DNA from: Rothia mucilaginosa ATCC 25296
Lineage (GTDB): Bacteria > Actinomycetota > Actinomycetes > Actinomycetales > Micrococcaceae
Reading direction: 5' to 3'
DNA length: 64,000 nucleotides
Assembly (NCBI RefSeq): GCF_000175615.1
Contig: NZ_ACVO01000004.1
Span: 74,389-138,388, forward strand
The notes under the pieces were generated by a model. The model was not told where the DNA came from and did not search any database. It worked only from the letters and a program-made list of their open reading frames with translations. Shown here piece by piece: positions 4,828 through 45,613 of this stretch; position 1 is the first letter of the stretch, and the number at the start of each line of letters is the position of its first letter. Made by a program: the position numbers and the translations under genes.

Positions 4828-5412
4828 TTAGCGCTGCGAGAAGATCAGGCTCATCGCCTCCGCACGGGTTGCGCCGTTCATCAGCGCACCGCGCACCGCG
4901 CTGGTCACGGTCTTCGCGCCCGGCTTACGCACACCGCGCATCGACATGCACATGTGCTCAGCCTCAATCACCACAATCGCGCCGCGCGGGTTCAGATGCT
5001 CCTCCAGAGCCTCCACCACCTGCGTAGTCAGACGCTCCTGCACCTGCGGGCGGCGAGCGTACAAATCCACCACGCGGGCGAGCTTGCTCAGGCCGGTCAC
5101 CTTACCGTCCGGGCCCGGAATGTAACCCACATGCGCCACGCCGTGGAACGGCACCAGGTGGTGCTCACAGGTCGAGTAGAACGGGATGTCCTTCACCAGC
5201 ACCATCTCAGAGTGGGCGATGTCGAAGGTCGTACCCAGAATCTCGCCGGCGTCCTGGTGCAGGCCCGAGAAGAACTCCGCGTAGGCACGCGCCACACGTG
5301 CCGGGGTCTGTTGCAGGCCGTCACGGTCCGGGTCCTCACCAATCGCGAGCAGAATCTCACGGACGGCAGCCTCAATACGCGGCTGGTCGACGGCGTTCTT
5401 AGCCTCGCTCAT
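4828..5412 (-). CDS. folE: GTP cyclohydrolase I
   Basis: Converts GTP to 7,8-dihydroneopterin triphosphate, the first step of folate synthesis. The 194-residue product carries the zinc ligands Cys82 and His85 ([10 protein letters not shown]) and Cys155 (EHMCMSMRG), plus the conserved [10 protein letters not shown] and RPQVQERLT segments. I chose ATG 5412 because a GGAG element lies just upstream; ATG 5424 is possible. Either start lies inside the 3' end of ftsH (14 or 26 nt overlap), so translation is coupled to ftsH. Homodecameric cytosolic enzyme by family knowledge. Confidence 0.94.
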
Positions 5413-12312: not shown

Positions 12313-13716
12313 TTAAACTTTTACGTCATTTTGACTATTCCGATTAATCTCATTATCTTGCGAGGTCCTATAGACCACAAAATTAATATCAATATAGAAA
12401 TTGCCCCAGGGGACACTGCGATCTCTCCTAAAGAAAAGGTGCCGACCGTCATTCGAAGTCAATTTATTACCATCACGGGCATTACGCGATGAACCGGCCA
12501 CAATACTAATATCATCCAGCTTATTCTCCAGATAAAACCCGTAACGCGAGGAACGCTGGCCAACTTTCGGATTAGCCGAACGCGGCGATACTAGGCGTGC
12601 TCCAGAAGCATTTCGTCCAATATACCAATTAGCTGCTTCATCAGTGCGTGCAGTTCCCTTAAGAATAAGTGAATTCTCGAGACTCGAGGACTCACCTAGA
12701 CAATTCATAAACTGATTATCCTTGAAACCTACGACCCACCCGTGCCCGCCATTCTCCTGAGCGGTACATCCGATGAACATATTCCGTTCGCCAAAAATCG
12801 CCCACCCGGCACCAGACTTTCTGCGGTACTGATCTCTATCGTGATAAAGGTCGGAATTTGGCTTATTGCGAATAGCAAACCAGGCGGTACATGCCACAAA
12901 TTTACATTGAGCTCCGTACACCTCAATTGCCCCATGATATCCGCCACCAAGATTGGCATCAGAGACCTCAACCATCACAAACTTATTATCCGCAGCTCCA
13001 GAGTTCAAACTCTCTGTTCTACGCTGAACATGACCCACCGGCTTTCCCACCAAGAGCCCTTGTCTGCGAGTTTTACGAATGCGGACCTTATCAACCTTCA
13101 TAGCACGATCATGTTCACCCAGGATGGCAATTCCGATTGCCGTATCCCAGATTTCAATATTTGAAATAATAGGGGCAGCTTCAGGTTCATTAAAAATATC
13201 ATATCTTGTATGAACAATAATGCCCGCAATATTATCCGGTATATAATTATCAGCAACGTGCTTACCCTGAGCAATTTGATACTCAAAAAATCCTTTACGA
13301 ATATTAGGATTCAAAAGATTAAGATTGGCGGCACGAATAAACATATCCCGTACCCCAAAACGCATTGGTATATTTGTTCCCATATCACCCACAAAGGTAT
13401 TGTATGACCCCATATGAAATACCCCCTGACACTCCATATCGTCACCATCAACATCTCTTAAAATCTTCGGGTTTTTATTAAACCCAATAATTTGTGTTGA
13501 GAATCCATGACCATACACCTCTACCCTATCCCTGAGATTAATAAAATCATTACTCACAAGATAGATTCCCGAAGGAATCTCGACAGAACCACCACCGGGA
13601 ACAGCGGCCACCGAGTTAATGGCATTTTGAATTGCTGGTGCGGAATCCTTCGTACCGGTTGGGTCTGCACCAAAATCCAAAACATTCACATGCTTTGATT
13701 TACTATAATCAACCAT
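12313..13716 (-). CDS. right-handed parallel beta-helix protein (pectate-lyase superfamily), copy 1
   Basis: 467 residues. The opening VNVLDFGADPTGTKDSAPAI is the hallmark of the Pectate_lyase_3 family: a short N-terminal cap followed by a beta-helix. Later segments shared with the two paralogues include GVFHMGSY, MFIGCTAQENGGHGW and DEAANWYIGRNA. I find no signal peptide, although the start is fixed by a good AAAGGAA before ATG 13716. Related folds include polysaccharide lyases, epimerases and phage tailspikes; no catalytic residues can be assigned by eye, so the activity is unknown. The gene is clearly poorer in GC than its two paralogues at 30145 and 32888, which suggests a different history. 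Confidence 0.75.
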   Translation of the reverse strand: MVDYSKSKHVNVLDFGADPTGTKDSAPAIQNAINSVAAVPGGGSVEIPSGIYLVSNDFINLRDRVEVYGHGFSTQIIGFNKNPKILRDVDGDDMECQGVFHMGSYNTFVGDMGTNIPMRFGVRDMFIRAANLNLLNPNIRKGFFEYQIAQGKHVADNYIPDNIAGIIVHTRYDIFNEPEAAPIISNIEIWDTAIGIAILGEHDRAMKVDKVRIRKTRRQGLLVGKPVGHVQRRTESLNSGAADNKFVMVEVSDANLGGGYHGAIEVYGAQCKFVACTAWFAIRNKPNSDLYHDRDQYRRKSGAGWAIFGERNMFIGCTAQENGGHGWVVGFKDNQFMNCLGESSSLENSLILKGTARTDEAANWYIGRNASGARLVSPRSANPKVGQRSSRYGFYLENKLDDISIVAGSSRNARDGNKLTSNDGRHLFFRRDRSVPWGNFYIDINFVVYRTSQDNEINRNSQNDVKV

Positions 13717-13750
13717 ATTGTATTCCTTTCTTAAGCCATGTAGTTCAAAC

Positions 13751-13771
13751 GCATTCAAATAGTTTGAATGC
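13751..13771. promoter_or_regulatory. inverted repeat upstream of beta-helix gene 1
   Basis: GCATTCAAA-TAG-TTTGAATGC, a perfect 9-bp dyad 35 bp before the start codon. A half copy (TTCAAAC) lies just beside it. Possible operator. Confidence 0.5.
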
Positions 13772-13919
13772 CAACCCACCAATTTTCCCTGAATATCTAT
13801 ACATAAAGATGATTTGATGTTTAATTCTATTAAATCTGTACCAACCCCCTATCAATCATCTCTTTTTGCAGAGCAAGATTTCCCGAATCCACAACCCTGC
13901 GATTACCCCCATAATTGTT

Positions 13920-23721: not shown

Positions 23722-24453
23722 ATGCCTCTTTCAGAACTTTCCGTCAGCACCCAGAACTATCTCAAGGAAATCTGGAGCCTCGAAGAATGGACCAAAACCC
23801 CTGCCACCGCATCCGCCCTGGCAGAACGCATGGGCCTGCGCATTTCTTCGGTATCTGACGGCCTCAAGCGCCTCGCCGCCGCCGACCTGATCGAGCATCA
23901 GCCCTACGGCGCTATTGAGCTTACTGAAACCGGCCGCTCCTACGCGCTGGCAATGATCCGCCGCCACCGCCTCATTGAGACGTTCCTCGTGGAGACGCTC
24001 GGCTACACCTGGGACCGTGTGCACGACGAGGCGGAGGTTCTGGAGCACGCGGTATCCGACTTCATGGTGGACCGCATCGACACCCTGCTGGGGCACCCGA
24101 CCCGCGACCCGCACGGCGACCCGATTCCGGATTCTTCGGGGCATATTAGTTTTCCGCAGACCGTGCCGCTGAGCCAGTGCGAACCCGGCGAAACAGTCGT
24201 GCTCGAACGCATTAACGATGATGACCCGCGCCTGCTGCGTTACCTGCAGGGCCACGGTTTTGTGCCCGGCGTGCGCCTACACATTGAGGAGGGTGCGCCC
24301 TTCTCGGAGGCGGTGAACGTGAGCGTGGTCGGTGCCGGTTCCGGCAACCTGCACGAGACGGACGCGGCTGGCGCGGTGAAGCCCGGCGGCACCATTATTC
24401 CGTTGGGTGCGGAGGCGACCGCCTCCCTGTTCGTGTCCCGCACGGTGCGCTAG
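23722..24453 (+). CDS. DtxR/MntR-family metal-dependent repressor
   Basis: 243 residues in three parts: an N-terminal winged helix (residues 5-65, TASALAERMGLRISSVSDGL), a helical dimer/metal-binding domain (about 70-140, with MIRRHRLIETFL and HDEAEVLEHAVSD giving the usual His/Glu/Asp ligands), and a C-terminal SH3/FeoA-like domain (155-240). Such proteins bind DNA when loaded with Mn2+ or Fe2+ and shut off uptake. It converges on the manganese-type ABC importer at 24548-27444, which carries a palindromic operator, so it is very likely its repressor. The name MntR fits better than DtxR/IdeR because of that context. Confidence 0.88.
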   Translation: MPLSELSVSTQNYLKEIWSLEEWTKTPATASALAERMGLRISSVSDGLKRLAAADLIEHQPYGAIELTETGRSYALAMIRRHRLIETFLVETLGYTWDRVHDEAEVLEHAVSDFMVDRIDTLLGHPTRDPHGDPIPDSSGHISFPQTVPLSQCEPGETVVLERINDDDPRLLRYLQGHGFVPGVRLHIEEGAPFSEAVNVSVVGAGSGNLHETDAAGAVKPGGTIIPLGAEATASLFVSRTVR

Positions 24454-24492
24454 GCGCAGGGCGGTAGAGGCACCCTAGAATTTCAGAAAATA

Positions 24493-24532
24493 GCGCTAGG
24501 CGGAGGTCCCGTAAAGGGCCTCCGCCTAGCGC
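24493..24532. terminator. bidirectional terminator between the DtxR-like and permease genes
   Basis: GCGCTAGGCGGAGG and its complement form a perfect 14-bp stem, with CCC/GGG continuing inside. It separates convergent genes. Confidence 0.85.
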
Positions 24533-24547
24533 TGTATTGAGTTAGTT

Positions 24548-25432
24548 TTAGGAAGCTGAGGGCTCAGTTTTCGTTGCAGCAGTGCTGAGTCGGCGGGCAC
24601 GCATCCTGCCCAGCAGACCGTAGCGCGGGGCGAACACGTACGCCAGGGCGAACAGTATGCCCTGCGTGACGACCACGGCACCGCCGGGAGATACATCCGC
24701 GTGGTAGCTGGCGTACAGGCCGGTCAGCGTGCCGGCCAGGGAGACTCCCACGCTCACCGCGAGCATCGGCACAAACCGGTCCGTGATGAGGCGCGCGGTG
24801 GAGCCGGGGATGACGAGCATCGCCACGACCAGCACCACGCCCACGATTTGCAGCGCCACCACGGAGGTTAGCGCCAGCATAATGAGTAGCAGCGCGCCGA
24901 GCAGACGCGGACGCAGCCCCACCGCCTGCGCGAAGCCCGGGTCGAAGGCGTACAGTACGAAGTCGCGGCGCTTGACCAGCAGCACGGCGGCAACCACCAC
25001 CGCGAGGATAGCGACCTGCCAGACGTCCGACCAGGACACGCCCAGCACGTTACCGAAGAGAATATGGTTCAGGTCGGTATTCGACGGCGTGACCGAAATC
25101 AGCACCAGACCGAACGCGAACATGGTCGTGAACACGATGCCGATCGCGGCGTCTTCGCGCACGCGGCCGCTACGCCGCACCCCGCCGATGAGCGCCACAG
25201 CCAGGAGTGCGGCAATGACCGCGCCCACTGCGAAGGGCGCACCGAAAATGTAGGCGAGCACCACGCCGGGTAGCACCGCATGCGAGATTGCGTCACCCAT
25301 GAGCGACCAACCGAGCAGCACGAGCCAGCAGGAGAGCAGGGCGCAGACGGCGGCGGCTATGACGGTGACCACGAACGCGCGGAGCATGAAGGGCAGGGTC
25401 AGCGGCTCCACCAGAAAGTTGAGGATGTCCAT
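24548..25432 (-). CDS. metal ABC transporter permease (Mn/Zn/Fe family)
   Basis: 294 residues with eight or nine hydrophobic segments, typical of the ABC-3 permease family. The stretch WSLMGDAISHAVLPGVVLAY is the conserved coupling region of these permeases, and VVLVVAMLVIPGSTARL near residue 200 is also characteristic. It begins directly after the ATPase gene stop (ATG 25432 against stop 25433), so the two are cotranscribed and probably coupled. Inner-membrane channel for the metal delivered by the lipoprotein encoded at 26482-27444. Confidence 0.92.
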   Translation of the reverse strand: MDILNFLVEPLTLPFMLRAFVVTVIAAAVCALLSCWLVLLGWSLMGDAISHAVLPGVVLAYIFGAPFAVGAVIAALLAVALIGGVRRSGRVREDAAIGIVFTTMFAFGLVLISVTPSNTDLNHILFGNVLGVSWSDVWQVAILAVVVAAVLLVKRRDFVLYAFDPGFAQAVGLRPRLLGALLLIMLALTSVVALQIVGVVLVVAMLVIPGSTARLITDRFVPMLAVSVGVSLAGTLTGLYASYHADVSPGGAVVVTQGILFALAYVFAPRYGLLGRMRARRLSTAATKTEPSAS

Positions 25433-26245
25433 TTAGTTCTTCCCTTCCGCAGAGCTGTTTGCAGTAGTGCCGGTAGCAGCGACCGGCGCGCCGGCGTCCA
25501 CCTCCATGCCGAAGGCACGCACCAGGTTCTCGGGGGCGAGCACCTTCTCGGGGGTGTCGTGCATCAGAATTGTGCCGCGCAGCAGTAGCGCCTCGTCGGC
25601 AAACTGGCGCAGGCTCGCCAAGTCGTGCGTGGAAACCAGCACGGTCGCGCCCTCGTCACGCAGCTGTTCGATGACCTGAATGAGCATCGCCTCGCTGCGC
25701 TTGTCCACGCCGGCGAAAGGCTCATCCAGCAACAGCAGCTGGGCGCCCTGGGCGATAGCGCGTGCCACGAAGGCGCGCTTACGCTGACCGCCCGAGAGCG
25801 CCCCAATCTGACGGTCGGCAAGGTCGGTCAGTTCCACGCGGGCGAGCGCCTCATCCACGGCAGCACGGTCTGCGGCACGCAGGCGGCGGGTGATGCCGAG
25901 GTTGCGGTAGCGTCCCATGCTGACGACCTCACGCACGGAGATGGGGAAGGTCCAGTCGATTTCTTCGCTCTGCGGCACGTAGCTGACGAGTCCGGCGCGG
26001 TGGTGGTGCGCGTTCTTGCCGCGGCTGCCACGGTTACCGCCGACGGGCTGCCCGTCGAGGGTGATGCTTCCGGCGTGCATGGGCACGACCCCCATGATGG
26101 CTTTGAAGAGGGTGGATTTGCCGGAGCCGTTCATGCCAATCAGGCCGCAGATACGCCCGGTGTCCAGGGTGAAGGATGCGCCGGTGAGGGCACGGACTGG
26201 CCCGTAGTTCACGTGCACATTTTCGCAGCTGAGAAGAGTGCTCAT
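25433..26245 (-). CDS. metal ABC transporter ATP-binding protein
   Basis: 270 residues with Walker A GMNGSGKST, a Q-loop VPQSEEIDW, signature LSGGQ, Walker B LLLLDEPF and the switch histidine in STHDL. The QSEEIDW sequence after the Q-loop is typical of Mn/Zn ATPases (MntB/ZnuC/PsaB type). It powers the permease encoded just downstream. The last 20 residues are an Ala/Thr-rich tail. Confidence 0.93.
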   Translation of the reverse strand: MSTLLSCENVHVNYGPVRALTGASFTLDTGRICGLIGMNGSGKSTLFKAIMGVVPMHAGSITLDGQPVGGNRGSRGKNAHHHRAGLVSYVPQSEEIDWTFPISVREVVSMGRYRNLGITRRLRAADRAAVDEALARVELTDLADRQIGALSGGQRKRAFVARAIAQGAQLLLLDEPFAGVDKRSEAMLIQVIEQLRDEGATVLVSTHDLASLRQFADEALLLRGTILMHDTPEKVLAPENLVRAFGMEVDAGAPVAATGTTANSSAEGKN

Positions 26246-26399
26246 TCCTTGTGTTCTTTCTGGTGGTCACCGTATGCGTGGGGCGGGTGTACTTGCTTGC
26301 GTGTTGCTGAGTGGGTATTGCTGAGTAGGTGCCGTGTGGGCGGGTGTTAACGGCTGGGAGGAGTGGAGCCATGAAGGCGACCGCCCCTCCTATCCTATC

Positions 26400-26484
26400 G
26401 GGGGTTTAGGGTTTACCCGGGGTTTTCGATGCCGGGTTTGGCCCGGGTTTCTACCGGGTTTATTCGGGGTTTATGCCGGGTTTA
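26400..26484. repeat. 11-bp-phased GGGTTT repeats
   Basis: GGGTTT occurs eight times in 85 bp; the last five (from 26434, 26445, 26456, 26467, 26478) are exactly 11 bp apart with consensus CCGGGTTT plus three bases. It lies between the substrate-binding gene stop and the ATPase gene. Confidence 0.65.
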
Positions 26485-27444
26485 GGAGTTGCCCTTGAGG
26501 CCCGCAACGATGGTGCGTGCGTCGTAGCGGATCATGTCCAGGTAGGTGGGCACGGGGCCGTTCGCTTCGGAGAGCGAGTCCACGTAGAGCACGCCGCCGA
26601 ATCGTGCGCCGGTGGCGTCTGCGACCTGGCGCATCGGGTTGTCAGAGACGGTGGATTCGCAGAACACAGCGGGCACCTGGTTCTCGCGCACGTAATCGAT
26701 CGCGGAGGAAATCTGCGAGGGGGTCGCCTGCTGTTCGGAGTTGACCGCCCAAATGTACTTTTCCTTCAGGCCCGCGTCTGCCGCCAGGTAGGAGAAGGCG
26801 CCTTCGCAGGTGACGAGTGCGCGCTGGTTCTCGGGCAGGGTGGAGATTTCCTTGACGAGCTCGTCACGCACGCCCTGTAGCTGCTTCTTGTAGGCTTCGC
26901 CGCGGGTCTTGTAGTCGGCGGCGTGGGCCGGGTCGAGGGCGCTAAATTCGCGAATCATCACGTCCACGTACTTTTGCACGTTGCTGGGGCTCATCCAGGC
27001 GTGGGGGTTGGGCTTGCCCGCGTAGGCGTCCTCGGTAATGGAGATGGGCGTGACCCCCTCGGAGACGGTCACGTGCTTAGCGTGGGATTCTTCAACGAAC
27101 TTCGCGAACCAGGATTCGAGGTTCAGGCCGTTGTCGAGCACCAGGTCAGCGGCGTGCGCCTTCTTCAGGTCGGAGGGAGTGGGCTCGTACTCGTGGATCT
27201 CTGCGCCGGGCTTGGTGAGGGATTCGACGTTCAGGTCGTCGCCTGCCACGTTGCGGGCGATGTCTGCGAGCACGGTGAAGGTGGTGAGCACGGTCTTCTT
27301 ACCGCTGCTGCTCTTAGCGCCTTCGGTGGTGCTGGAGGTGCTACCGCAGCCGGTGAGCACGAGTAGCAGGGTGAGTGCGAGGGCGGCGCAGAGCGCCTGG
27401 ACGAGGCGGCGTGCGTTGCTGCCTGCGGGGGTGAAAGCGTTCAT
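26482..27444 (-). CDS. manganese-type ABC transporter substrate-binding lipoprotein
   Basis: 320 residues of the adhesin/cluster A-I family. The signal peptide ends in the lipobox LTGC (Cys33). The metal ligands expected for PsaA/MntC proteins are present: His84 (AEIHEYEP), His148 (NPHAW), Glu214 (VTCEGAFSYL) and Asp268 (ESTVSDNPM). A Glu at the third position, rather than the His of zinc-specific ZnuA, and the absence of a His-rich loop point to manganese (or iron). ATG 27444 follows AAGGA by seven bases. The upstream promoter contains a perfect palindrome in its spacer. First gene of the transporter operon. Confidence 0.92.
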   Translation of the reverse strand: MNAFTPAGSNARRLVQALCAALALTLLLVLTGCGSTSSTTEGAKSSSGKKTVLTTFTVLADIARNVAGDDLNVESLTKPGAEIHEYEPTPSDLKKAHAADLVLDNGLNLESWFAKFVEESHAKHVTVSEGVTPISITEDAYAGKPNPHAWMSPSNVQKYVDVMIREFSALDPAHAADYKTRGEAYKKQLQGVRDELVKEISTLPENQRALVTCEGAFSYLAADAGLKEKYIWAVNSEQQATPSQISSAIDYVRENQVPAVFCESTVSDNPMRQVADATGARFGGVLYVDSLSEANGPVPTYLDMIRYDARTIVAGLKGNS

Positions 27445-27582
27445 GAGGCATCCTTCATTGGAAGTCACGGGTTTGAGTATGTGGTTGATGTATGGGATTT
27501 GCCGCGCCGGGACGCTAGGGACACGGTTGTGTCTGCGCAGGCATCATAATGCGCTTTTGCCTGTCGTCCCGGGCGGAATTTA

Positions 27583-32887: not shown

Positions 32888-34234
32888 TTAGCCCATGAAC
32901 ACGCCGTTGCCGCGCTTCTCCAGCTGCTTCGGCGCGAAAGTCGCGTGGCGGATGTGGTCCACCTCGATGAGCACGTTATCGCCCATCGCACCGGTCACGT
33001 GAACACGGCGGCCGATCATGTTGTTATCACCAATACGGTCATCCTTCGCGGACGCAGTCGTAATGTGCATATCGCGAATGTTGTTCTCAATGTAGAAACC
33101 GTACAGGGAAGCCTTCGCCCAGCTGTAAGGGTTGTGCGAACGAGGAGCCACGAAGCGGCTACCGCGTGCGTTACGGCCAATGTACCAGTTCGCCGCCTCG
33201 TCGCCTCGAGCACCGCCGGTAACAGCGTCCTGGAAGCTGGAAGACTCACCCAGGCAACCAATGAACTGGTTGTTGCCCCACTCCACGAGCCAGCCGTGAC
33301 CGGCGTTCTCCTGGGCGGTGCAGCCAATGAACATGTTGCGGGTGCCCTGAATGAACCAGCCTGCACCCACATGGCGGGTCTTCACCTCGTACAGGGCGTT
33401 CTTACCCTGGTTGCGCTTGTTGAACCAGCTGGTGGACGCCTCAAACTTGGACTGAGAAGTGTAAATCTCGATACCCGCGTAGGTGCCGAAGCTCATGTTT
33501 GCGTCAGAGACGTCAATCATGGAGAACTTGTTATCTGCCGCGCCGGGGGTGTCACCCTCACGGCGGCGCAGCGGGTGGCCGACAGGCTTACCGACCAGCA
33601 GGCCCTGGCGCAGGGTCTGGCGGATGCGGATCTTGTCAATCTTCATGCCCTGATCGTCCAGGCCCAGGATCGCAACGCCAATGGCGGTGTCCCAGATTTC
33701 GATGTTGGACAGGGTGGGCACTGCGTCCGGCTCACCGGGGTTAGCGTCCGCAATGCGGGTGTGGAAGATGACGCCCGCAACGTTGTCGACGGGCTGGGTG
33801 TGCTTCTCCAGGAAAATCTGGTTGCTCTTAGAATCCAGCGGCAGGTTGTACTTGTTGGTGCGGATGAACAGGTCACGCACGCCCATACGCATGGGCTTGT
33901 TCTGGTTGGTGCCACCGCTCATGGGGGTGGTGTAGCTACCGGTGTGGAAAACGCCGGTGCATTCGTAGCTACCGTTCTTAGACGACGGGATGCTCTTGTC
34001 GGTGAAAGCGACGATTCGGGTTGCCTGACCGTGGCCGAAGATCTCGACGCGGTGCTTCATTTCGATGAAGGGGTAGGAGACGCGGTACATACCGCCGGGA
34101 ATCTCCACAGAGCCGCCGCCCTGCGCAGCAACATCATCGATAGCCTTCTGGATAGCACTAGTGGAATCTCGTACGCCGGTGGGGTCAGCGTTGTACTTGG
34201 AATCGCATACGTTCACGCTCATGATGGTAGCCAT
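32888..34234 (-). CDS. right-handed parallel beta-helix protein (pectate-lyase superfamily), copy 3
   Basis: 448 residues from ATG 34234, preceded by AGAGGA. The domain starts near YNADPTGVRDSTSAIQKAID and runs almost to the end, with GVFHTGSYTTP, MRMGVRDLFIRTN, DDQGMKIDKIRIRQT, FIGCTAQENAGHGW and DEAANWYIGRNARG. It is closer to copy 2 than to copy 1. No signal peptide. Possible roles are modification of the cell's own capsule or wall polysaccharide, or an adhesin-like scaffold; neither is shown. Confidence 0.77.
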   Translation of the reverse strand: MATIMSVNVCDSKYNADPTGVRDSTSAIQKAIDDVAAQGGGSVEIPGGMYRVSYPFIEMKHRVEIFGHGQATRIVAFTDKSIPSSKNGSYECTGVFHTGSYTTPMSGGTNQNKPMRMGVRDLFIRTNKYNLPLDSKSNQIFLEKHTQPVDNVAGVIFHTRIADANPGEPDAVPTLSNIEIWDTAIGVAILGLDDQGMKIDKIRIRQTLRQGLLVGKPVGHPLRRREGDTPGAADNKFSMIDVSDANMSFGTYAGIEIYTSQSKFEASTSWFNKRNQGKNALYEVKTRHVGAGWFIQGTRNMFIGCTAQENAGHGWLVEWGNNQFIGCLGESSSFQDAVTGGARGDEAANWYIGRNARGSRFVAPRSHNPYSWAKASLYGFYIENNIRDMHITTASAKDDRIGDNNMIGRRVHVTGAMGDNVLIEVDHIRHATFAPKQLEKRGNGVFMG

Positions 34235-34871
34235 GGAGTGTCCTCTTTCTTGGCGGATACAAACAGCGATTAGCGCATAGATGAAATCTAAGCGCGTCAT
34301 TAAGCTGAGTGTATCCAGTTGTGTTTGAGTGAATAAGTGGTTTTGAGCTTCCTTCCGGTTGAGTGAGTGAGTCTCTTCCAGTGTGGGATGCGGGCGGGGA
34401 GTGAATCCGCTGCATCAACGCTCGTGGGCGGTGTGAGGGAGTGAATCTCAACCGTTCCCATGTGAGTCATAAATTCTTGCATACAGGATGCGAATCTGTC
34501 TAACCCACGACAAAACATTCTAGGGCAAATTTGGGGCTTTTTCGCCGCTCAACGCCCGATAGTGTTGATTGTCTCCTCGGTCACTTTTATGCAGTGAAGT
34601 GCACATACCCCACAAAAACCCAACTGACCAGTACAAATACCACATTTTGCACACAAATGCACTAGTCAGGGAATTTTTGGCAGTGCGCGCCATATCACTT
34701 CATAAACCGATTGATACGGCCCAAAGTCCCCCATTAAAACCCCTCATCAGAGGCTTATCTCACAGGTTCAGAGGCTCCGGTATAGCGCCCACCAGAGAGT
34801 CCAACGAGCACCCCGGCAGACACTTCTAACAGACACCCGGCAAACAACCCCGGCAGATAGGGTTCAAGCCC
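34235..34871. other. 637-bp intergenic stretch upstream of beta-helix gene 3
   Basis: No gene and no strong hairpin seen. The first 250 bp contain several GAGTGA strings near the start of the beta-helix gene and probably its promoter; the rest is unremarkable. Confidence 0.4.
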
Positions 34872-39638: not shown

Positions 39639-39678
39639 TGCCTATATTCAACCGCCTATACGGCGGGGTGCGTGGGGC

Positions 39679-40815
39679 TTAGAGGCTCTTGACGAGTTCC
39701 TCGGTAGCCTCAGCGATAGCCTTCTCCTCGTTGGTGGGGATGACCAGCACCTTGATAGCGGAATCCTCGGTGGAAATCACGCGCGGCTCGGGGGAACGCT
39801 TAGCGTTCTCTTCCTCGTTGTACTTGATACCGAGAGCGCCGAGGCGGTCCAGGACCAGCTTGCGGAAGTCGCCGGAGTTCTCACCGATACCAGCGGTGAA
39901 GATCAGTGCCTGCGCGCCGCCAACAACCAGGTTGTAGCCGCCAATGTACTTCATCAGGCGGTAGGAGGTCATGTCCAGTGCGAGCTGTGCACGCTCGTCG
40001 CCGGACTGTGCGGCCTCAACGACCTTACGCATGTCGTTGGAGCCAGCCAGTGCGAGCAGACCGGACTCCTTGTTCAGGATGGTGTCCAGGCGTGCACCGT
40101 CAATGCCCTCACGAATCAGGATGGTGGTCAGTGCCGAGGGGTCGATGTCGCCGGAGCGGGTACCCATGATCAGGCCAGCCAGCGGGGTGTAGCCCATGGA
40201 GGTGTCGACGGACTTGCCGCCCTTCACAGCGGTTACGGACGCGCCGTTACCGAGGTGAGCAACGATGCCGTTGAACTCGTCGCGTGCAATGCCGAGCATG
40301 TCAGCTGCAACGTGGGAGACGTACTCGTGGCTGGTGCCGTGGAAGCCGTAGCGGCGGATGCTGTACTTGTCAGCCAGGTCGTAGGGGATCGCGTAGCGCC
40401 ATGCTTCTTCAGGCATGGTGGAGTGGAACGCGGTGTCGAAGATAGCGACCTGCGGCAGGGAGGGCCACTTGTGCATTGCTGCGCGCATGCCCTGAGCGTG
40501 TGCGGGGTTGTGCAGCGGTGCCAGCGGGGAGAGGTCGTCGATCTGCTGGACAACTTCCTCGGTGAGCAGGGCGGGGTGGGTGAACTTCTCTGCACCCTGC
40601 ACCACGCGGTGGCCGACTGCCTGCAGCTCACGGCCTGCCAGGACGGGCTCAAGCTTCTCGGACATGATGTCGAATGCGACTTCGTGGTTGGGCACGTCGG
40701 TGCCGATGTTTTCGACGAGGCCGGAGGTCAGCATCTGCTCTGCCTCGGGCAGGGAGGTGTCACGCACCTGGTACTTCAGGGAGGAAGAACCAGCGTTCAC
40801 AACGAGAATAAGCAT
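39679..40815 (-). CDS. ackA: acetate kinase
   Basis: Interconverts acetyl phosphate + ADP and acetate + ATP. From ATG 40815 the 378-residue protein starts MLILVVNAGSSSLKYQ and carries FDTAFHSTMP, YGFHGTSHEYV, HLGNGAS and MGTRSGDIDP, all family signatures. Slightly shorter than the usual 395-400 residues. Its partner pta lies at 53183-55273, about 12 kb away, rather than adjacent as in many bacteria. The upstream gap 40816-41087 shows nothing else. Confidence 0.95.
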   Translation of the reverse strand: MLILVVNAGSSSLKYQVRDTSLPEAEQMLTSGLVENIGTDVPNHEVAFDIMSEKLEPVLAGRELQAVGHRVVQGAEKFTHPALLTEEVVQQIDDLSPLAPLHNPAHAQGMRAAMHKWPSLPQVAIFDTAFHSTMPEEAWRYAIPYDLADKYSIRRYGFHGTSHEYVSHVAADMLGIARDEFNGIVAHLGNGASVTAVKGGKSVDTSMGYTPLAGLIMGTRSGDIDPSALTTILIREGIDGARLDTILNKESGLLALAGSNDMRKVVEAAQSGDERAQLALDMTSYRLMKYIGGYNLVVGGAQALIFTAGIGENSGDFRKLVLDRLGALGIKYNEEENAKRSPEPRVISTEDSAIKVLVIPTNEEKAIAEATEELVKSL

Positions 40816-41087
40816 GAAAGTATCTCTTTCGTAGTTTTCTTTTCTGCTCCATTCTCGCACTTTTCGAGCCTGCGTGCGAGACGGCCCCGACTGTGTTTTT
40901 AACGGGGGTTTTTATCGCGGGCGGTATCAGGGCATTATCGGGGGCAGGAGGGGCGGGTGTGCACAGTGTGGCGCCGTACTCGTTCAGAAGTGCCACCGAC
41001 GAATCGGTCCAGGCTATAGGTTTGACCCTATAGATTCGCATTTCGTCCTCGATAGTTCTTGGAGAAAAACGTAGTACTTGGGTCAGC

Positions 41088-44018
41088 TCACGCATCTAAA
41101 TTCACCACTTCTTTGAAACGATCAAGGTTAGAGCGCGAGTGAAGGACAATCACAACCTGCTTGTCACTACCCTCGATAGCGCACGCCATCGATTCGAGCT
41201 CAGTGCGCTCCTCTGACGGAGTGAGACCCTTCAAGGTCTCATCAAGCAACACAAGCCGGGCAGCGCCTTCACGTAACACGGAACGCGCAAGCATGAGCCC
41301 GCTCGAATTCGATGCTTCAGATGCGAACGGATCGATATCTGGTACGATTACCACTTCGCCTTGGGGATACCGGCGGTATAGAGCATCAAGCATGACGGAC
41401 TTCCCCGCGCCAGTTGGTCCAATCAAGGCAACCATAGAACACCCAGAGTCAAGAACGCTCTCAAGCAGAGCCAGGTCAGCAGACCGCACGGGCGGATAAG
41501 AACGGTCGGCCCGGTACTCTTCAAGCATCCGAACACGCTCCGCAGTCAAGCTGACTACACCAACCTGTTGCAGCGTCTCCACCGTAGATTGGGTACCAGA
41601 TGACAGAGTCACTGCAAAATATATTACGACCGCGGGAGCAACCACTGAGTTCGATCCTTCGACCATCAGTGCCAATACCACTGCAGAAACATTCAGTGAC
41701 AACACAAGCAACTGAATCAGTCCCGTACGCAGTGCGTAGGCGTTCGCCAACTGAATCGAACTGCTGACGTATGCAGCCTCCGAATGAGCGTAGGCTTCTT
41801 CTCCAGCCCGACGCAGCCCTGCACTGACGGGCGCAGCGTGTAAGCCAGCCTGGGCCCCAGCCACCCCGATGAAGTCACCTCGGCGATTGGCAGCCGTCGT
41901 CGAGGCAGGGAGAATCCACTTTGAACCCTGACGCATAGCAAGCATCGCTAGGGGTGCTACCGCCAACACAGCAATTATGAACAGCGGGGCGCCAGCCACT
42001 GCGCCTCCGATGAGCATAAAGGTCTGTAAAATGACCATAAATACCGAACCCAGGGCGCTAGGCACCGACATCTGAAGGTCGGAGAAGTCTTCACCCATCC
42101 GCCCCATGACCGCACCGCTTGTTCTAGGACTAGCGAATCGATCGAGCCTCCGTATAACCCGGTCGTGCAAATCGCTCAGCCTAGCGATGGGAGCCCAGTA
42201 GAGCGGGCCAAAGAACATGACGGACCCAACAATTGCTGCCAGTGCACAAGCAGCTGACACTCCAGCAACCTGAGCAGACAGCCCATCACTGTGAGCAATC
42301 GTCAATGCAAAAGCAACTTCGGATCCGCTCAAGAGTAGGGCGCCACACGTAATCCACACCAAATGCGGTCCAAACAACAACAGGGCCGATCGTCGGAATG
42401 TGGCACGCTTCGGCTCAGGGTCAGGAAGGTCCTGTCCCTCGCTCACCTCCATCGAACCAGCATCTGCCTCCTTAACTGCCCCGGGGCTATGAGCCTGCAA
42501 CTCAAGAGGGTCTACCCTCGCATCATTGCCGGGGGTGAAGGCACTCGGTACGTACTCCTCCGAGCTTGCCAGAAGTGTGCACGTTGGCACGCACTCTAAG
42601 ATCCTCTCGGCAACCACTTCTCGTGTTACAGGATCAAGCGCTGCGAACGTATCGTCCAAAATTAGCCAGTCCGGTTTGTCTGCCAAAACGATAGCGACAG
42701 CAGCACGGTGTCTCTCTCCTGACGACAAGGTTGTTGCGTCTTGCCAGAACCGCCCGATCACATCCTCAGTGAGCCCCATATCTAAAGCGAGGCTAGTGAA
42801 CCGGGATACCTGATGTGGCGAAGCAGAAGCTCGCCACGCTGACAACACCGAATGGGACACTTCCGGGTTGCGTGGTACGAAAGCAGAATCGGGGGTGGTC
42901 ACGGATGTGCGCAATGCTTCAGCGCGCTCAGACGTAGCTGCAAGCACCTCTCTAGAATTTGAAGGCTGCCCCACCCAGTCCTGCTGTTTAACCGTGCAAT
43001 TTGGAGACGACTCGAGCTTGTCGAGCTCACGCATCATTGGCACAGCGAGCCGAATAACCCGATAGTTTACGATGTTGTTCTGCACCGCTGCGTACAGGTA
43101 GCGGGCTGCCAAAATAATTCCAACGCCGAAATGAGCGGATGGCCAGAGCCACGCGCCGAGAACCGCAACCACAGCGAGCACCGCAGTTAGTGCTCCCCGT
43201 TCAAGGAATCCATTCAGGACCTGCAACGGGACCCGTCTGCGTAGAAGCTGCTCTTCGGTGTTTCGGATGCTAGCGACCTTGTCCAGGGCGGTACCCCAGC
43301 TGGGGATGCTTCGCCCTCGAGGCAGCGCGTTTGCTACACGCTGAATCCACTGCCTACGCTCTCCCTCTAGAGCGACGTACTGTTCCCATAGTCGGCCCAC
43401 CAAGTTGATGAGACGGACGCTGACGAATACCAATCCAGTGATGAGCAACGCAGCGATTGCGCCGCTTGCACCATATAGCGCGAGCGAAGCCGCGAGAAAG
43501 GCAATAATCTGAACGGTTGAAACGGCGAAATCAACAACGAAGGCAAACTGGCTGATCTGTCCTGGGTATGTGAGAACATGTCCGTGAGCTTCCGGCGGAT
43601 GGGATGACCTACTAAAGATGTCCCGGAAACGGCGGTATGTGAGCTGTCGAACCGCGATCGTGAGAATAAGCTCCTGGCGTTCCTTCACCCAGTACCCTAG
43701 GCTTTCAGCCAGGAAAGCGAAGATGAGTAACCAAATAGCACTGCCTGGGGTCCTCTCACCTGACGTTACCTGGCCGATACCTGCCGTAATCATCAGAGCC
43801 CCTGCAACATTCAGTAGGCCAGCGGTGAAGACGGTGAAACTCGTGCTCGTTGGCGCGAATATCAAAGCAAGCCAGCGGATCCGTCTCGGCAGGTTCCGCG
43901 CTATCCTTTGATAGCGTACATACAAGTGCTCGATGGGCATGTCTCTCAGATGCAGGCTAGGAGCGCTCTGTGCTTCGCCCCGTCGCTTGTGATTAATCAC
44001 CATTATGTTTCCAGTCAT
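41088..44018 (-). CDS. fused ABC exporter with two complementary, incomplete ATPase domains
   Basis: 976 residues laid out as membrane domain 1 (about 45-330), ATPase 1 (350-490), membrane domain 2 (540-800) and ATPase 2 (840-976), i.e. both halves of an ABC exporter in one chain. ATPase 1 has a Q-loop-like FVPRNPEV, a helical region, the signature LSSGE (431-435) and a Walker B-like LILDD, but no Walker A, no catalytic Glu and no switch His. ATPase 2 has Walker A GPTGAGKS (867-874), Walker B LVLLDE and LHSRS with the His, but the helical subdomain and signature are missing. Together they could form exactly one ATP site. Substrate unknown; no biosynthetic genes adjoin. ATG 44018 is assumed. 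Confidence 0.8.
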   Translation of the reverse strand: MTGNIMVINHKRRGEAQSAPSLHLRDMPIEHLYVRYQRIARNLPRRIRWLALIFAPTSTSFTVFTAGLLNVAGALMITAGIGQVTSGERTPGSAIWLLIFAFLAESLGYWVKERQELILTIAVRQLTYRRFRDIFSRSSHPPEAHGHVLTYPGQISQFAFVVDFAVSTVQIIAFLAASLALYGASGAIAALLITGLVFVSVRLINLVGRLWEQYVALEGERRQWIQRVANALPRGRSIPSWGTALDKVASIRNTEEQLLRRRVPLQVLNGFLERGALTAVLAVVAVLGAWLWPSAHFGVGIILAARYLYAAVQNNIVNYRVIRLAVPMMRELDKLESSPNCTVKQQDWVGQPSNSREVLAATSERAEALRTSVTTPDSAFVPRNPEVSHSVLSAWRASASPHQVSRFTSLALDMGLTEDVIGRFWQDATTLSSGERHRAAVAIVLADKPDWLILDDTFAALDPVTREVVAERILECVPTCTLLASSEEYVPSAFTPGNDARVDPLELQAHSPGAVKEADAGSMEVSEGQDLPDPEPKRATFRRSALLLFGPHLVWITCGALLLSGSEVAFALTIAHSDGLSAQVAGVSAACALAAIVGSVMFFGPLYWAPIARLSDLHDRVIRRLDRFASPRTSGAVMGRMGEDFSDLQMSVPSALGSVFMVILQTFMLIGGAVAGAPLFIIAVLAVAPLAMLAMRQGSKWILPASTTAANRRGDFIGVAGAQAGLHAAPVSAGLRRAGEEAYAHSEAAYVSSSIQLANAYALRTGLIQLLVLSLNVSAVVLALMVEGSNSVVAPAVVIYFAVTLSSGTQSTVETLQQVGVVSLTAERVRMLEEYRADRSYPPVRSADLALLESVLDSGCSMVALIGPTGAGKSVMLDALYRRYPQGEVVIVPDIDPFASEASNSSGLMLARSVLREGAARLVLLDETLKGLTPSEERTELESMACAIEGSDKQVVIVLHSRSNLDRFKEVVNLDA

Positions 44019-44332
44019 TCGGTATTCGAGTTCAGGTGTACGGCCTCGTTAAACCGCAAAATAGATAGCCAGAATACTTTCTGGTGTTCTGAGTGGTGGA
44101 AGCACCCGGAAGCATTATGTCGCCTGACCCTAATGTAGCAGACATGGGATGAATCACACGGCGGCTACAGGAGCCTTACACAATGGTGGCGTGAGCAGAT
44201 GGATTACCACATACCGATACTTATGTCTGCAACCGGCCCGTTCCGCTACTGCAAAGATGGATTCCACGATTCTGCCAGTTATAGGCGGGATACATTCCGG
44301 TGCGGCCCCTCCCCTGTTTCTACGTTTGCGGG
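44019..44332. other. intergenic stretch between the ABC exporter and fic
   Basis: 314 bp. It presumably carries the exporter promoter on the minus strand. No gene or hairpin recognised. Confidence 0.35.
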
Positions 44333-45613
44333 CTATTCTTCGTCGTCATCAACGGCGGGCAAGCCCAGCAGGACGGTTCCCGCCTCGGTGAGGGACCAGC
44401 GCATCGTGCGGCCAGCCTTCATACCCTCAACAAAACCAAGCCCCTGCAACAGTTTGAGCCTATCGCGCAGAGTCGGCGCCGTAACCCCCAGCACCTCCTG
44501 CAACTCGCTCGAAGTGGGCGCAACCGGCGCACGGAAAATCTGCACCTGCCCCAGCAGGTACAGTAGCCGCAGAACATCATCGAGCTTCTTAGAAGTCAGC
44601 CCGGGAGTGCCACCCGTCCAGGTGCGGCTGCCCTCCAGCTCAGCGATACGCTTGCCAAGACCACGCCACGCACGGTCGCGTGACTCCAGTTCGTCTACCA
44701 GGTGCTCCTGAGCCTGCTCGATCAGCCCCAGAAAAACATGCAGAAAACCGGTCACCTCACCGTAGTTGAGGGGTTCTTCCGCCGTGCTAAACGCCTTGTA
44801 GTAGCGGCTCTTCTGAATGTTGAGCGTGCTCGGCAGGGTGAGGGTCGTCAGCCGGGTGAGTGTCTGCCCCAGGTGGGCTACCAGCAGGTACCTGCCCAGG
44901 CGGCCGTTGCCGTCGTAGAAAGGATGCGTGTATTCCACCATGAAATGCGCGGCGATTGCGGAGAATAGCGCCGGCACGTTCGGGTTGAGGGCATGGTTGA
45001 GTGCCGCCTGCACGTTGGCGATGATGGTTGCTTCACTGTCAGGGGCGCGGTGAATTTCGCGTGTGTTGTCGTGAATAACCACGGGTTTGGTGCGGAATAG
45101 AGCCCCGTCTGGGCGGTCTTCTTCCGCGAGGTGCCCCTCGAGTAGCGTGTTGTAGAGGCTGCGCACCTGCTCGACTGTGGCGGGTGGGCGGCCTGCCCCC
45201 AGGTCTTTGAGGAGGTTCACGAATTCGACGGCGCGCTTAGCGCGGGGGTCCTCGCTGTCGCCGGAGGTGAGCGCCTCAGAGATGAGCTGCCGTGTGGTGT
45301 GCACACCTTCGATACGGTCGGACGCCACGATGCTGCGTACTGCCAGGTCGAGTAGGTAGCTTTGCATGGCGATGCTGGGCAGTTGGGAGCTCAGCTGTTC
45401 AATGTGCCGTTCACGGCGCATGATGCGTTCGAAGGATGCGAGCGCGATGCGGTCTGCCAGGTAGAACAGGGGGTGCTCCCCCACCGTGAATTCGTTGAGG
45501 AGGTAGGTGGAGTGGCCGTTGCGGCGTGCCTGCAGTTCGGTTTGTGCGGCGGCTTTGCCGCGTTCGTGGAAGATGCTTTTGAGGGTGCGGTACCTTGTGC
45601 CGGTGGTATTCAC
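44333..45613 (-). CDS. Fic family AMPylator-type protein with C-terminal winged helix
   Basis: 426 residues. The Fic motif HPFYDGNGRLGR is at 230-241 with the catalytic His230. An inhibitory-helix motif S-x3-E-G occurs at Ser98-Glu102-Gly103, placing it in class II (autoinhibited by its own N-terminal helix). Residues about 355-420 look like a winged helix (SSELQEVLGVTAPTLRDRLK), as in many Fic/DUF4172-type regulators. It should transfer AMP to target proteins; the target is unknown. Two operator-like repeats lie directly upstream (45631-45711), suggesting autoregulation. No Fic-antitoxin gene is adjacent. Confidence 0.87.
   Translation of the reverse strand: MNTTGTRYRTLKSIFHERGKAAAQTELQARRNGHSTYLLNEFTVGEHPLFYLADRIALASFERIMRRERHIEQLSSQLPSIAMQSYLLDLAVRSIVASDRIEGVHTTRQLISEALTSGDSEDPRAKRAVEFVNLLKDLGAGRPPATVEQVRSLYNTLLEGHLAEEDRPDGALFRTKPVVIHDNTREIHRAPDSEATIIANVQAALNHALNPNVPALFSAIAAHFMVEYTHPFYDGNGRLGRYLLVAHLGQTLTRLTTLTLPSTLNIQKSRYYKAFSTAEEPLNYGEVTGFLHVFLGLIEQAQEHLVDELESRDRAWRGLGKRIAELEGSRTWTGGTPGLTSKKLDDVLRLLYLLGQVQIFRAPVAPTSSELQEVLGVTAPTLRDRLKLLQGLGFVEGMKAGRTMRWSLTEAGTVLLGLPAVDDDEE

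Follow-up and report, generated by a model that had tools for sequence, protein, structure and literature searches.

A predicted single-chain ABC exporter of Rothia with reciprocally truncated ATPase domains, and a peptide cassette in its relatives

Why has a second ATP site, though impaired in catalysis, been retained in many ATP-binding cassette (ABC) exporters? According to a review (PMC7756269), nucleotide still binds at the degenerate site of ordinary exporters, and one view is that the ATP there may serve as a hinge, stopping the two halves from separating. A 64,000-nucleotide stretch of Rothia mucilaginosa ATCC 25296 (contig NZ_ACVO01000004.1, positions 74,389 to 138,388; hereafter the window, by whose numbering positions are given) contains a gene that bears on this standing question, in that it belongs to a whole family that appears to be devoid of the second site and keeps the catalytic Glu, switch His, Walker A and signature of the other. 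We regard its product, hereafter the ABC protein, as very probably a single-chain exporter with the MRP/P-glycoprotein fold, which would form one ATP site from two reciprocally cut ATPase domains. The overall reading, viz., a one-site exporter that transports for a peptide cassette in relatives and confers immunity in Rothia, is one that we hold with moderate confidence.

Two ATPase halves with complementary losses

The gene is one minus-strand open reading frame (ORF) of 976 codons with no internal stops. The elements of its product, with transmembrane and nucleotide-binding domains abbreviated as TMD and NBD, are as follows:

41088..44018, minus strand: predicted single-chain ABC exporter, 976 aa, in the order TMD1, NBD1 fragment, TMD2, NBD2 fragment (ORF and predicted fold)
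43008..43934, minus strand: TMD1, residues 29-337, long helices (AlphaFold secondary structure)
42549..42905, minus strand: NBD1 fragment, residues 372-490, beginning at the Q-loop strand, reaching approximately the H-loop and lacking the Walker A half (hhalign)
42714..42728, minus strand: signature LSSGE of half 1, residues 431-435
42624..42668, minus strand: Walker B LILDDTF, in which the catalytic Glu is missing, followed by D-loop AALD, which is intact; residues 451-465 (alignment)
42438..42527, minus strand: linker, residues 498-527, of low confidence (pLDDT <50)
41520..42398, minus strand: TMD2, residues 541-833 (AlphaFold; weak ABC_membrane match over 628-720)
41091..41483, minus strand: NBD2 fragment, residues 846-976, lacking both the helical subdomain and the signature (hhalign)
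41397..41420, minus strand: Walker A GPTGAGKS of half 2, residues 867-874
41238..41255, minus strand: Walker B LVLLDE with the catalytic Glu, residues 922-927; the following D-loop Asp is lost (GLTP)
41139..41141, minus strand: switch His960

Pattern search finds no Walker A in half 1, whose Walker B reads LILDD and whose H-loop region reads SSEE. Aligned by hhalign with a profile of 16 ordinary NBDs, half 1 falls on columns 82-196 of 226 (probability 99.45, E 4.5e-22), everything N-terminal to the Q-loop strand, including Walker A, being gone; the best Pfam ABC_tran match (residues 390-458) covers profile positions 79-136 of 137. Half 2 occupies columns 36-216 of the same NBD profile with a 71-column deletion (99.3, E 2.3e-20) that removes the helical subdomain and the signature, and 53 residues separate its Walker A Lys from its Walker B Asp. 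The spacing in ordinary ABC proteins (n=13) is 120-132 in 18 of 23 values, the other five being one of 102, one of 839 and three unreadable by pattern. A sequence-only reading of this DNA had described ATPase 1 as devoid of Walker A, catalytic Glu and switch His and retaining LSSGE, and ATPase 2 as retaining Walker A, the Walker B Glu and the His and having lost the helical subdomain and signature; both descriptions are borne out by the ORF, the motif patterns and the profile alignments.

The same reading had asked whether a frame error might underlie the pattern, or whether a corrected sequence might restore an intact Walker A to the first half. A frame error is excluded by independent Rothia assemblies, in which the same 976-aa ORF is unbroken at 98% identity, viz., Rothia sp. 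RSM386 (L001, apparently the same contig as L002 and L027 of genome G003) and the one-contig Rothia genome G1190 (L059), and neither of these has a Walker A in half 1. L059 and the window have their neighbourhood in common over 39652-44539, at 97.7%. Pairwise ratios of nonsynonymous to synonymous substitution rates (dN/dS, NG86) among the three Rothia copies are 0.22, 0.31 and 0.29 (dN 0.0102, 0.0107 and 0.0125; dS 0.0468, 0.034 and 0.0425).

Structure prediction and Pfam searches on the halves, both of which had been proposed as checks, agree with an exporter. Pfam gives the partial ABC_tran match and the weak ABC_membrane match listed above, and the AlphaFold model has a confident exporter fold (pLDDT 84, pTM 0.85), with a predicted arrangement of two helical TMDs and two NBD positions as in type IV exporters. 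The model superposes on ATP-bound MRP-type exporters, the matches also including SUR and CFTR; bacterial exporters are not among the best 50 structural matches listed, an observation of no evidential weight.

The losses across the family and the composite ATP site

To what extent are these losses conserved? A search of 5.8 billion proteins, in which, as in the profile search, about 8000 candidates sharing most words were scored, gave 59 matches, of which 58 are family members at 98% to 29% identity and the last is a generic ABC match. The named sources include Canibacter, Corynebacterium, Nanchangia, Actinomyces, Gleimia and Curtobacterium. The profile search gave 112 matches, with the bit scores falling from 529 to 68 between the family and ordinary ABC proteins; this drop is no proof against intermediates because relatives can be missed, the known members P0054, P0055, P0057, P0058 and P0059 not having been returned. 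For the pattern count, 62 members including the query were used, with those below 850 aa (P0049, P0055, P0056) set aside and the short partial proteins P0063-P0068 kept outside it. In each of the 59 full-length members Walker A occurs exactly once, within the last fifth of the chain, and [LM]SxGE exactly once, in its middle part, at identities down to 27-30%, although about 22 are near-duplicates and the members are thus not 59 independent cases. The Lys-Asp spacing, readable in 58 cases, is 53 in 49 of them (range 51-81). Distant members that are 31-32% identical to the Actinomyces protein P0035 still retain the pattern, by count in P0122 from L041 and by eye in L022 and L025.

An alignment of 37 sequences, comprising the query and 36 of the 58 members (P0009-P0030, 22 proteins that by score appear to be near-duplicates of P0007 or P0008, being omitted), gives the same result at the level of residues. 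Invariant in all 37 are S432, G434 and E435 of the half 1 signature and, in half 2, G867, G870, G872, K873 and S874 of Walker A, D926 and E927 of Walker B, and the switch residue H960. At the half 1 position of the catalytic Glu, Asp is present in 30, Asn in five and Glu in two (P0033, P0059), and the half 1 H-loop column, which is residue 487 by extension of the hhalign alignment, has His in a single sequence (P0041). The D-loop, absent from the earlier note, obeys the same rule in these sequences: it survives in the half that provides the signature, Asp462 of half 1 being retained in 36 of 37 and the corresponding Asp of half 2 in two (P0050, P0053). The distant member L022 has Asn at the D-loop Asp position.

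The earlier proposal that the complementary halves are built to make exactly one composite site is backed by the 59 of 59 pattern and by the residues invariant in the alignment. We propose that NBD1 would supply the signature, D-loop and helical subdomain only, and NBD2 the Walker A, Walker B and switch His only, such that the closed dimer would hold one ATP in one composite site. The halves would be brought together by ATP binding and released by hydrolysis, protein contacts and the covalent tether having to take over from the static ATP hinge that has been invoked for ordinary degenerate sites.

Exporters with one weak site are well known. As in TM287/288, BmrCD, TmrAB, TAP, the ABCC family and CFTR, the predicted site combines the Walker A, Walker B and His of one half with the signature of the other on an exporter fold, and the first-half Walker B of the Rothia protein lacks the Glu. 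The sequences would thus furnish the one consensus composite site of a degenerate-site exporter, with parts that are invariant or nearly so and with the Q-loop Gln mostly lost. Unlike those exporters, the Rothia protein has deleted the NBD1 Walker A half and the NBD2 helical subdomain and signature, because of which the second ATP site, judged by sequence, is absent and not merely weak. Hence, there is no altered second site with a Walker A of its own that would bind nucleotide, and in none of the 59 full-length members does every NBD have Walker A, Walker B and signature as in type IV exporters. A further likeness is to the thiol exporter CydDC: among solved structures, the listed chains whose best match falls on the second half alone (profile positions 803-952) are CydC (E 2e-13), and the top NCBIfam match is CydD, with scores well short of the equivalog cut-offs (48.3 bits against 435 for CydD; 32.5 against 329.05 for CydC). 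CydDC has complete NBDs. Among the open-access titles and abstract openings listed we found no account of whole-site loss in an ABC exporter, a passage of one paper treating occupancy instead.

A peptide cassette in the relatives

What might such a protein transport? The sequence-only reading had found that substrate and neighbours give no role, which stands for the window and fails for some relatives, where a cassette of peptide, TPR protein, transporter and hydrolase genes is found. The family is rare among the genomes sampled. A full-length copy was found in one of 120 Rothia-family genomes (the other listed matches being short and generic), one of 394 genomes of a class sample and one of 297 of an order sample (query P0035), samples that overlap and whose lone match is the same genome, G003; further copies occur in 2 of 189 genomes of one family and 6 of 213 of another (f49). 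The latter is probably Actinomycetaceae by sequence, since its genome G941 carries an Actinomyces respiraculi protein at 99%. The most complete arrangement, locus L039 of genome G1036, has the following gene order, the last three genes overlapping:

L039:7800-7883: 27-aa Lys-rich peptide ORF MKIKARKVTRPKTNMAVMYCYKSPGMG, containing TNMAVMYCYK, with a strong ribosome-binding site
L039:7950-9464: TPR protein
L039:9451-12345: ABC protein
L039:12342-14003: S9-like hydrolase

Related peptides lie upstream on the minus strand at L037 (MKISTHKVVKSKTNMAVMYCYKTRTAG, from 12846) and L038 (MKMKTRKVSKPKTNMSVMYCYKGKSNL, from 11709). At L037 the TPR gene is in pieces and the hydrolase is a 63-residue match; at L038 only the end of the TPR gene was detected and the hydrolase was undetected. 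The DNA pattern encoding NMxVMYCYK occurs in three of the 213 f49 genomes, always at the ABC locus, with the reversed pattern in none; by our own arithmetic, the chance that all three would fall among the six ABC carriers is about 1 in 80,000, a figure that overstates independence because two of the three genomes share a genus. In two more sources, P0036/P0136 and, from Gleimia hominis, P0049/P0131, contigs of equal length (7720 and 1608863, respectively) suggest that the ABC and TPR proteins are encoded on one contig. The TPR protein is modelled at pLDDT 92.6 and gives generic TPR superhelix or scaffold matches among the best 50 listed in a fold search. As a candidate RRNPP-type DNA-binding peptide receptor it was rejected, no DNA-binding domain being found by Pfam or NCBIfam at the limits used.

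A tblastn search with the TPR protein against plasmids gave 20 records, 13 of which were examined. An MFS transporter is annotated adjoining or within the TPR gene run in eight (two Klebsiella, two Pantoea, Listeria, Acinetobacter L049, Priestia and Bacillus); in one, Streptobacillus, the annotated transporter is of the ABC-2 type. Of the remaining four, Vibrio has an MFS-like gene by eye only, Streptomyces and the second Acinetobacter list none, and Nonomuraea is unannotated. A hydrolase is annotated in five (Streptobacillus, two Klebsiella, two Pantoea). The peptide scan, which left out L056 and L057, placed a peptide with the motif V(M/V)Y upstream in seven of the 13, namely both Klebsiella and both Pantoea records and those of Streptobacillus, Priestia and Bacillus. 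The motif was not seen in Acinetobacter L049 or Streptomyces, and it is missing from the short Lys-rich ORF present in Listeria and Vibrio. Plasmid loci with related TPR cassettes, including MFS or ABC-2 transporters, are listed here, in most cases with a position for the peptide ORF:

L045:2620
L046:5499
L047:6739
L050
L051:5722
L052:4148
L053:4131

The peptides with the motif are 21-29 aa long, and alignment of nine distinct ones shows M1, K2, the Val and the Tyr to be invariant and the tail variable. These ORFs are missing from the plasmid gene tables, which are incomplete; gene callers often skip genes of this length. The Bacillus and Priestia cassettes add a protein of 77-78 aa, which in Priestia has no Pfam match, and a methyltransferase. 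The peptide strings were found in no open-access paper (YCYK in none of the matches listed; subscription papers lay outside the scope), and open-access literature listings contained nothing on the cassette, be it as TPR with MFS, prolyl oligopeptidase, precursor peptide, O-methyltransferase or microcin. It is possible that this cassette, spread over four phyla, is undescribed.

In some relatives the short peptide gene beside an exporter recalls the exporters of bacteriocins and of ribosomally synthesized and post-translationally modified peptides (RiPPs), such as LanT and PCAT, and by sequence a short, conserved gene resembling that of a RiPP precursor is present at three of eight non-Rothia ABC loci and seven of 13 plasmid loci, and not in the window. 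Unlike PCAT, the ABC protein has no C39 peptidase domain by Pfam, with a separate S9-like hydrolase present in relatives; unlike LanT, it is without full NBDs. FlaP and other prolyl oligopeptidases of RiPP clusters provide precedent for an S9-family hydrolase in a peptide cluster (PMC10885120); unlike in FlaP clusters, the genes of the L039 operon itself include none for a LanKC-type enzyme. Lanthionine, YcaO and radical-SAM enzymes are likewise not found among these genes, the flanks lying outside the scan. The S9 scores are weak (L039, 19.1 bits and below the cut-off; Klebsiella, 28.3; no S9 match in Streptobacillus). Because the transporter of the cassette can be any of three unrelated kinds, the simplest role for the ABC protein would be to export the peptide or something made from it. 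We therefore consider it reasonably probable that in relatives the ABC protein is the cassette transporter, most likely exporting the peptide or its product, with the TPR protein perhaps holding the peptide and the hydrolase perhaps cutting or cyclising it.

The chief alternative casts the short ORF as a regulatory leader, at which ribosome arrest or attenuation at a hairpin controls a cassette, the ABC gene included, that makes no peptide product of its own and serves as inducible efflux or resistance against an outside compound. A stable hairpin, sometimes ending in a U-rich tail, does lie 3' of the peptide in six of the eight loci folded (z -3.5 to -6.3), being weak in L051 (z -1.9) and absent in L037 (z -0.2). 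The Priestia MFS protein is nearest to efflux types in NCBIfam (TIGR00900, EntS, Mef), with the Klebsiella MFS protein matching none, and no RiPP modification enzyme is named or matched among the cassettes' own genes at L039, L046 and L047. However, phyla share the Lys-rich N-terminus and differ in the length and sequence of the tail that follows VMY, which resembles a leader with a changeable end more than an arrest motif at the stop; moreover, the TPR scaffold and S9-like hydrolase suit peptide handling, and the Bacillus and Priestia versions include a methyltransferase. On this evidence we consider a leader unlikely.

The presence of SUR and CFTR beside the MRPs among the structural matches raises the question of whether the ABC protein is instead an ATP-gated channel or a sensor, for which gating by one ATP site would be suitable. 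Against this, all 37 aligned sequences have the half 2 catalytic Glu and switch His, residues that a protein acting purely as a sensor could do without, and sister cassettes carry exporters of other kinds; this alternative appears quite improbable. Still less credible is a half-machine, in which the halves complete each other in trans in an oligomer or a separate ATPase subunit supplies parts: complementary deletions permit trans pairing in principle, but one chain by itself is predicted to fold into a complete exporter, and the L039 TPR protein and hydrolase are not ATPases by Pfam (the flanking genes were not scanned for ATPases). Decay or artefact can be dismissed as having almost no likelihood, since the same losses recur across the 59 full-length members, with an ORF unbroken in three Rothia genomes, the dN/dS values of 0.22-0.31 and no full-domain relative found in the non-exhaustive searches, even though partner genes are broken in several loci, one ABC copy is split (G1035) and the L026 copy is broken near its start.

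Several observations nevertheless weigh against a working one-site exporter serving a peptide cassette. In half 1 the Q-loop Gln remains in five of 36 rows, and in half 2, provided that the strand has been assigned correctly, it remains in one of 37 (P0051); turnover may be slow because this residue is mostly missing. The constraint on the Rothia protein is moderate, with a YN00 dN/dS of 0.33 between the window and L027, and the NG86 values are several times that of ackA (0.065; 0.0065/0.1001); by these substitution rates, the protein is under constraint that is weaker than that on ackA. The protein and profile searches, in which no relative with complete NBDs such as would have pointed to simple decay of this copy was found, were capped and non-exhaustive, the profile search missing the five known members named above. 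L039 is the sole complete operon seen, in a genome that is 80% complete, and a peptide lies upstream of the ABC gene in three of the eight non-Rothia loci examined, none being found at L036, L040, L041, L025, L026, L001, L027 or the window. At several ABC loci the TPR and hydrolase genes are broken or undetected: the TPR protein was undetected at L025, L026, L036, L040, L041 and the Rothia loci, and the L036 hydrolase matches are spread over three frames. The TPR gene was found in none of 35 Rothia genomes, both ABC carriers included, in a search with no positive control. Its relative P0141 was likewise found in none of 197 Rothia-family genomes at E 1e-20, again with no positive control. The distant ABC members at L025:10603-13473 and L026:10141-12998 (32% to P0035) have no detected TPR or hydrolase gene.

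The Rothia locus and what a one-site family would mean

In the window the ABC gene is flanked by a Fic-like gene, so named by eye, and ackA. A remnant of the partner hydrolase persists:

40956..41095, minus strand: hydrolase remnant, the first approximately 47 codons of an S9-like gene, whose ATG overlaps the end of the ABC gene

The DNA homology of this frame to L001 stops at 40956, and in L001 and L027 the same frame runs on into an S9-like alpha/beta hydrolase gene that is broken into at least two frames; tblastn with the remnant itself gave no match. An ORF at 40760-41095 was rejected as a separate gene, being the hydrolase start plus the ackA upstream region, and a 27-aa ORF directly upstream of the ABC gene was dropped, as by eye it bears no resemblance to the cassette peptide. 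Rfam finds nothing at gathering score over 40500-45000. PADLOC gave only a mad3 match over residues 422-477, which we do not read as a MADS defence system because these residues are the generic signature and Walker B stretch.

The ABC gene is carried by 2 of 35 genomes of the genus Rothia, and its third-position G+C is 0.574; the value is higher in 28 of the 32 other ORFs of at least 250 codons listed and exceeds 0.70 in 21, the list being mechanical and including some ORFs that are not genes. The low third-position G+C and the sparse carriage together suggest that the gene was acquired horizontally in Rothia. Origin from a mobile element or phage was considered and dropped, there being no match to the ABC protein in plasmids (query P0001) or phages (query P0053) at E 1e-20.

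Around the locus, the Fic-like gene (44333-45613) has at E 1e-60 a match in one of the seven Rothia genomes searched, at 39% identity; in G1190 an ORF of Fic-like length with a very similar start adjoins the ABC gene. In RSM386 L001 the ABC/hydrolase stretch sits at another genomic place than in the window. The first 66 bp or so of the kinase-like gene 3' of that stretch recur at the opposite contig end (1-66 and approximately 5183-5247), which places the stretch between short direct repeats. Elsewhere in the window, by eye, are two genes for pectate-lyase-like proteins at 12313-13782 and 32888-34300 (the first with a G+C of 0.43 against 0.60 for the window) and one for a DtxR-like regulator adjoining a metal ABC importer operon at 23722-27468.

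As the TPR gene was not found in the 35 Rothia genomes and the hydrolase gene is broken or reduced, yet the ABC gene is open and its product constrained, efflux immunity would be the simplest role there. We tentatively suggest that the Rothia protein might have been retained as efflux immunity against producing neighbours.

What appears to be new here is a predicted exporter with a whole site removed by reciprocal deletion; the peptide cassette to which the gene leads, with its conserved tiny peptide gene in Actinomycetota, Fusobacteriota, Pseudomonadota and Bacillota, is a lead that may be more. The nucleotide stoichiometry and transport of this protein would bear on whether one ATP suffices and on what replaces the hinge: if the reading is true, the hinge ATP of degenerate-site exporters would be dispensable. 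The larger picture, plausible but somewhat short of probable, is that a cross-phylum peptide cassette recruited a one-site ABC exporter in Actinomycetota, in which the hinge ATP could be dispensed with, and that Rothia may keep the pump alone as immunity.

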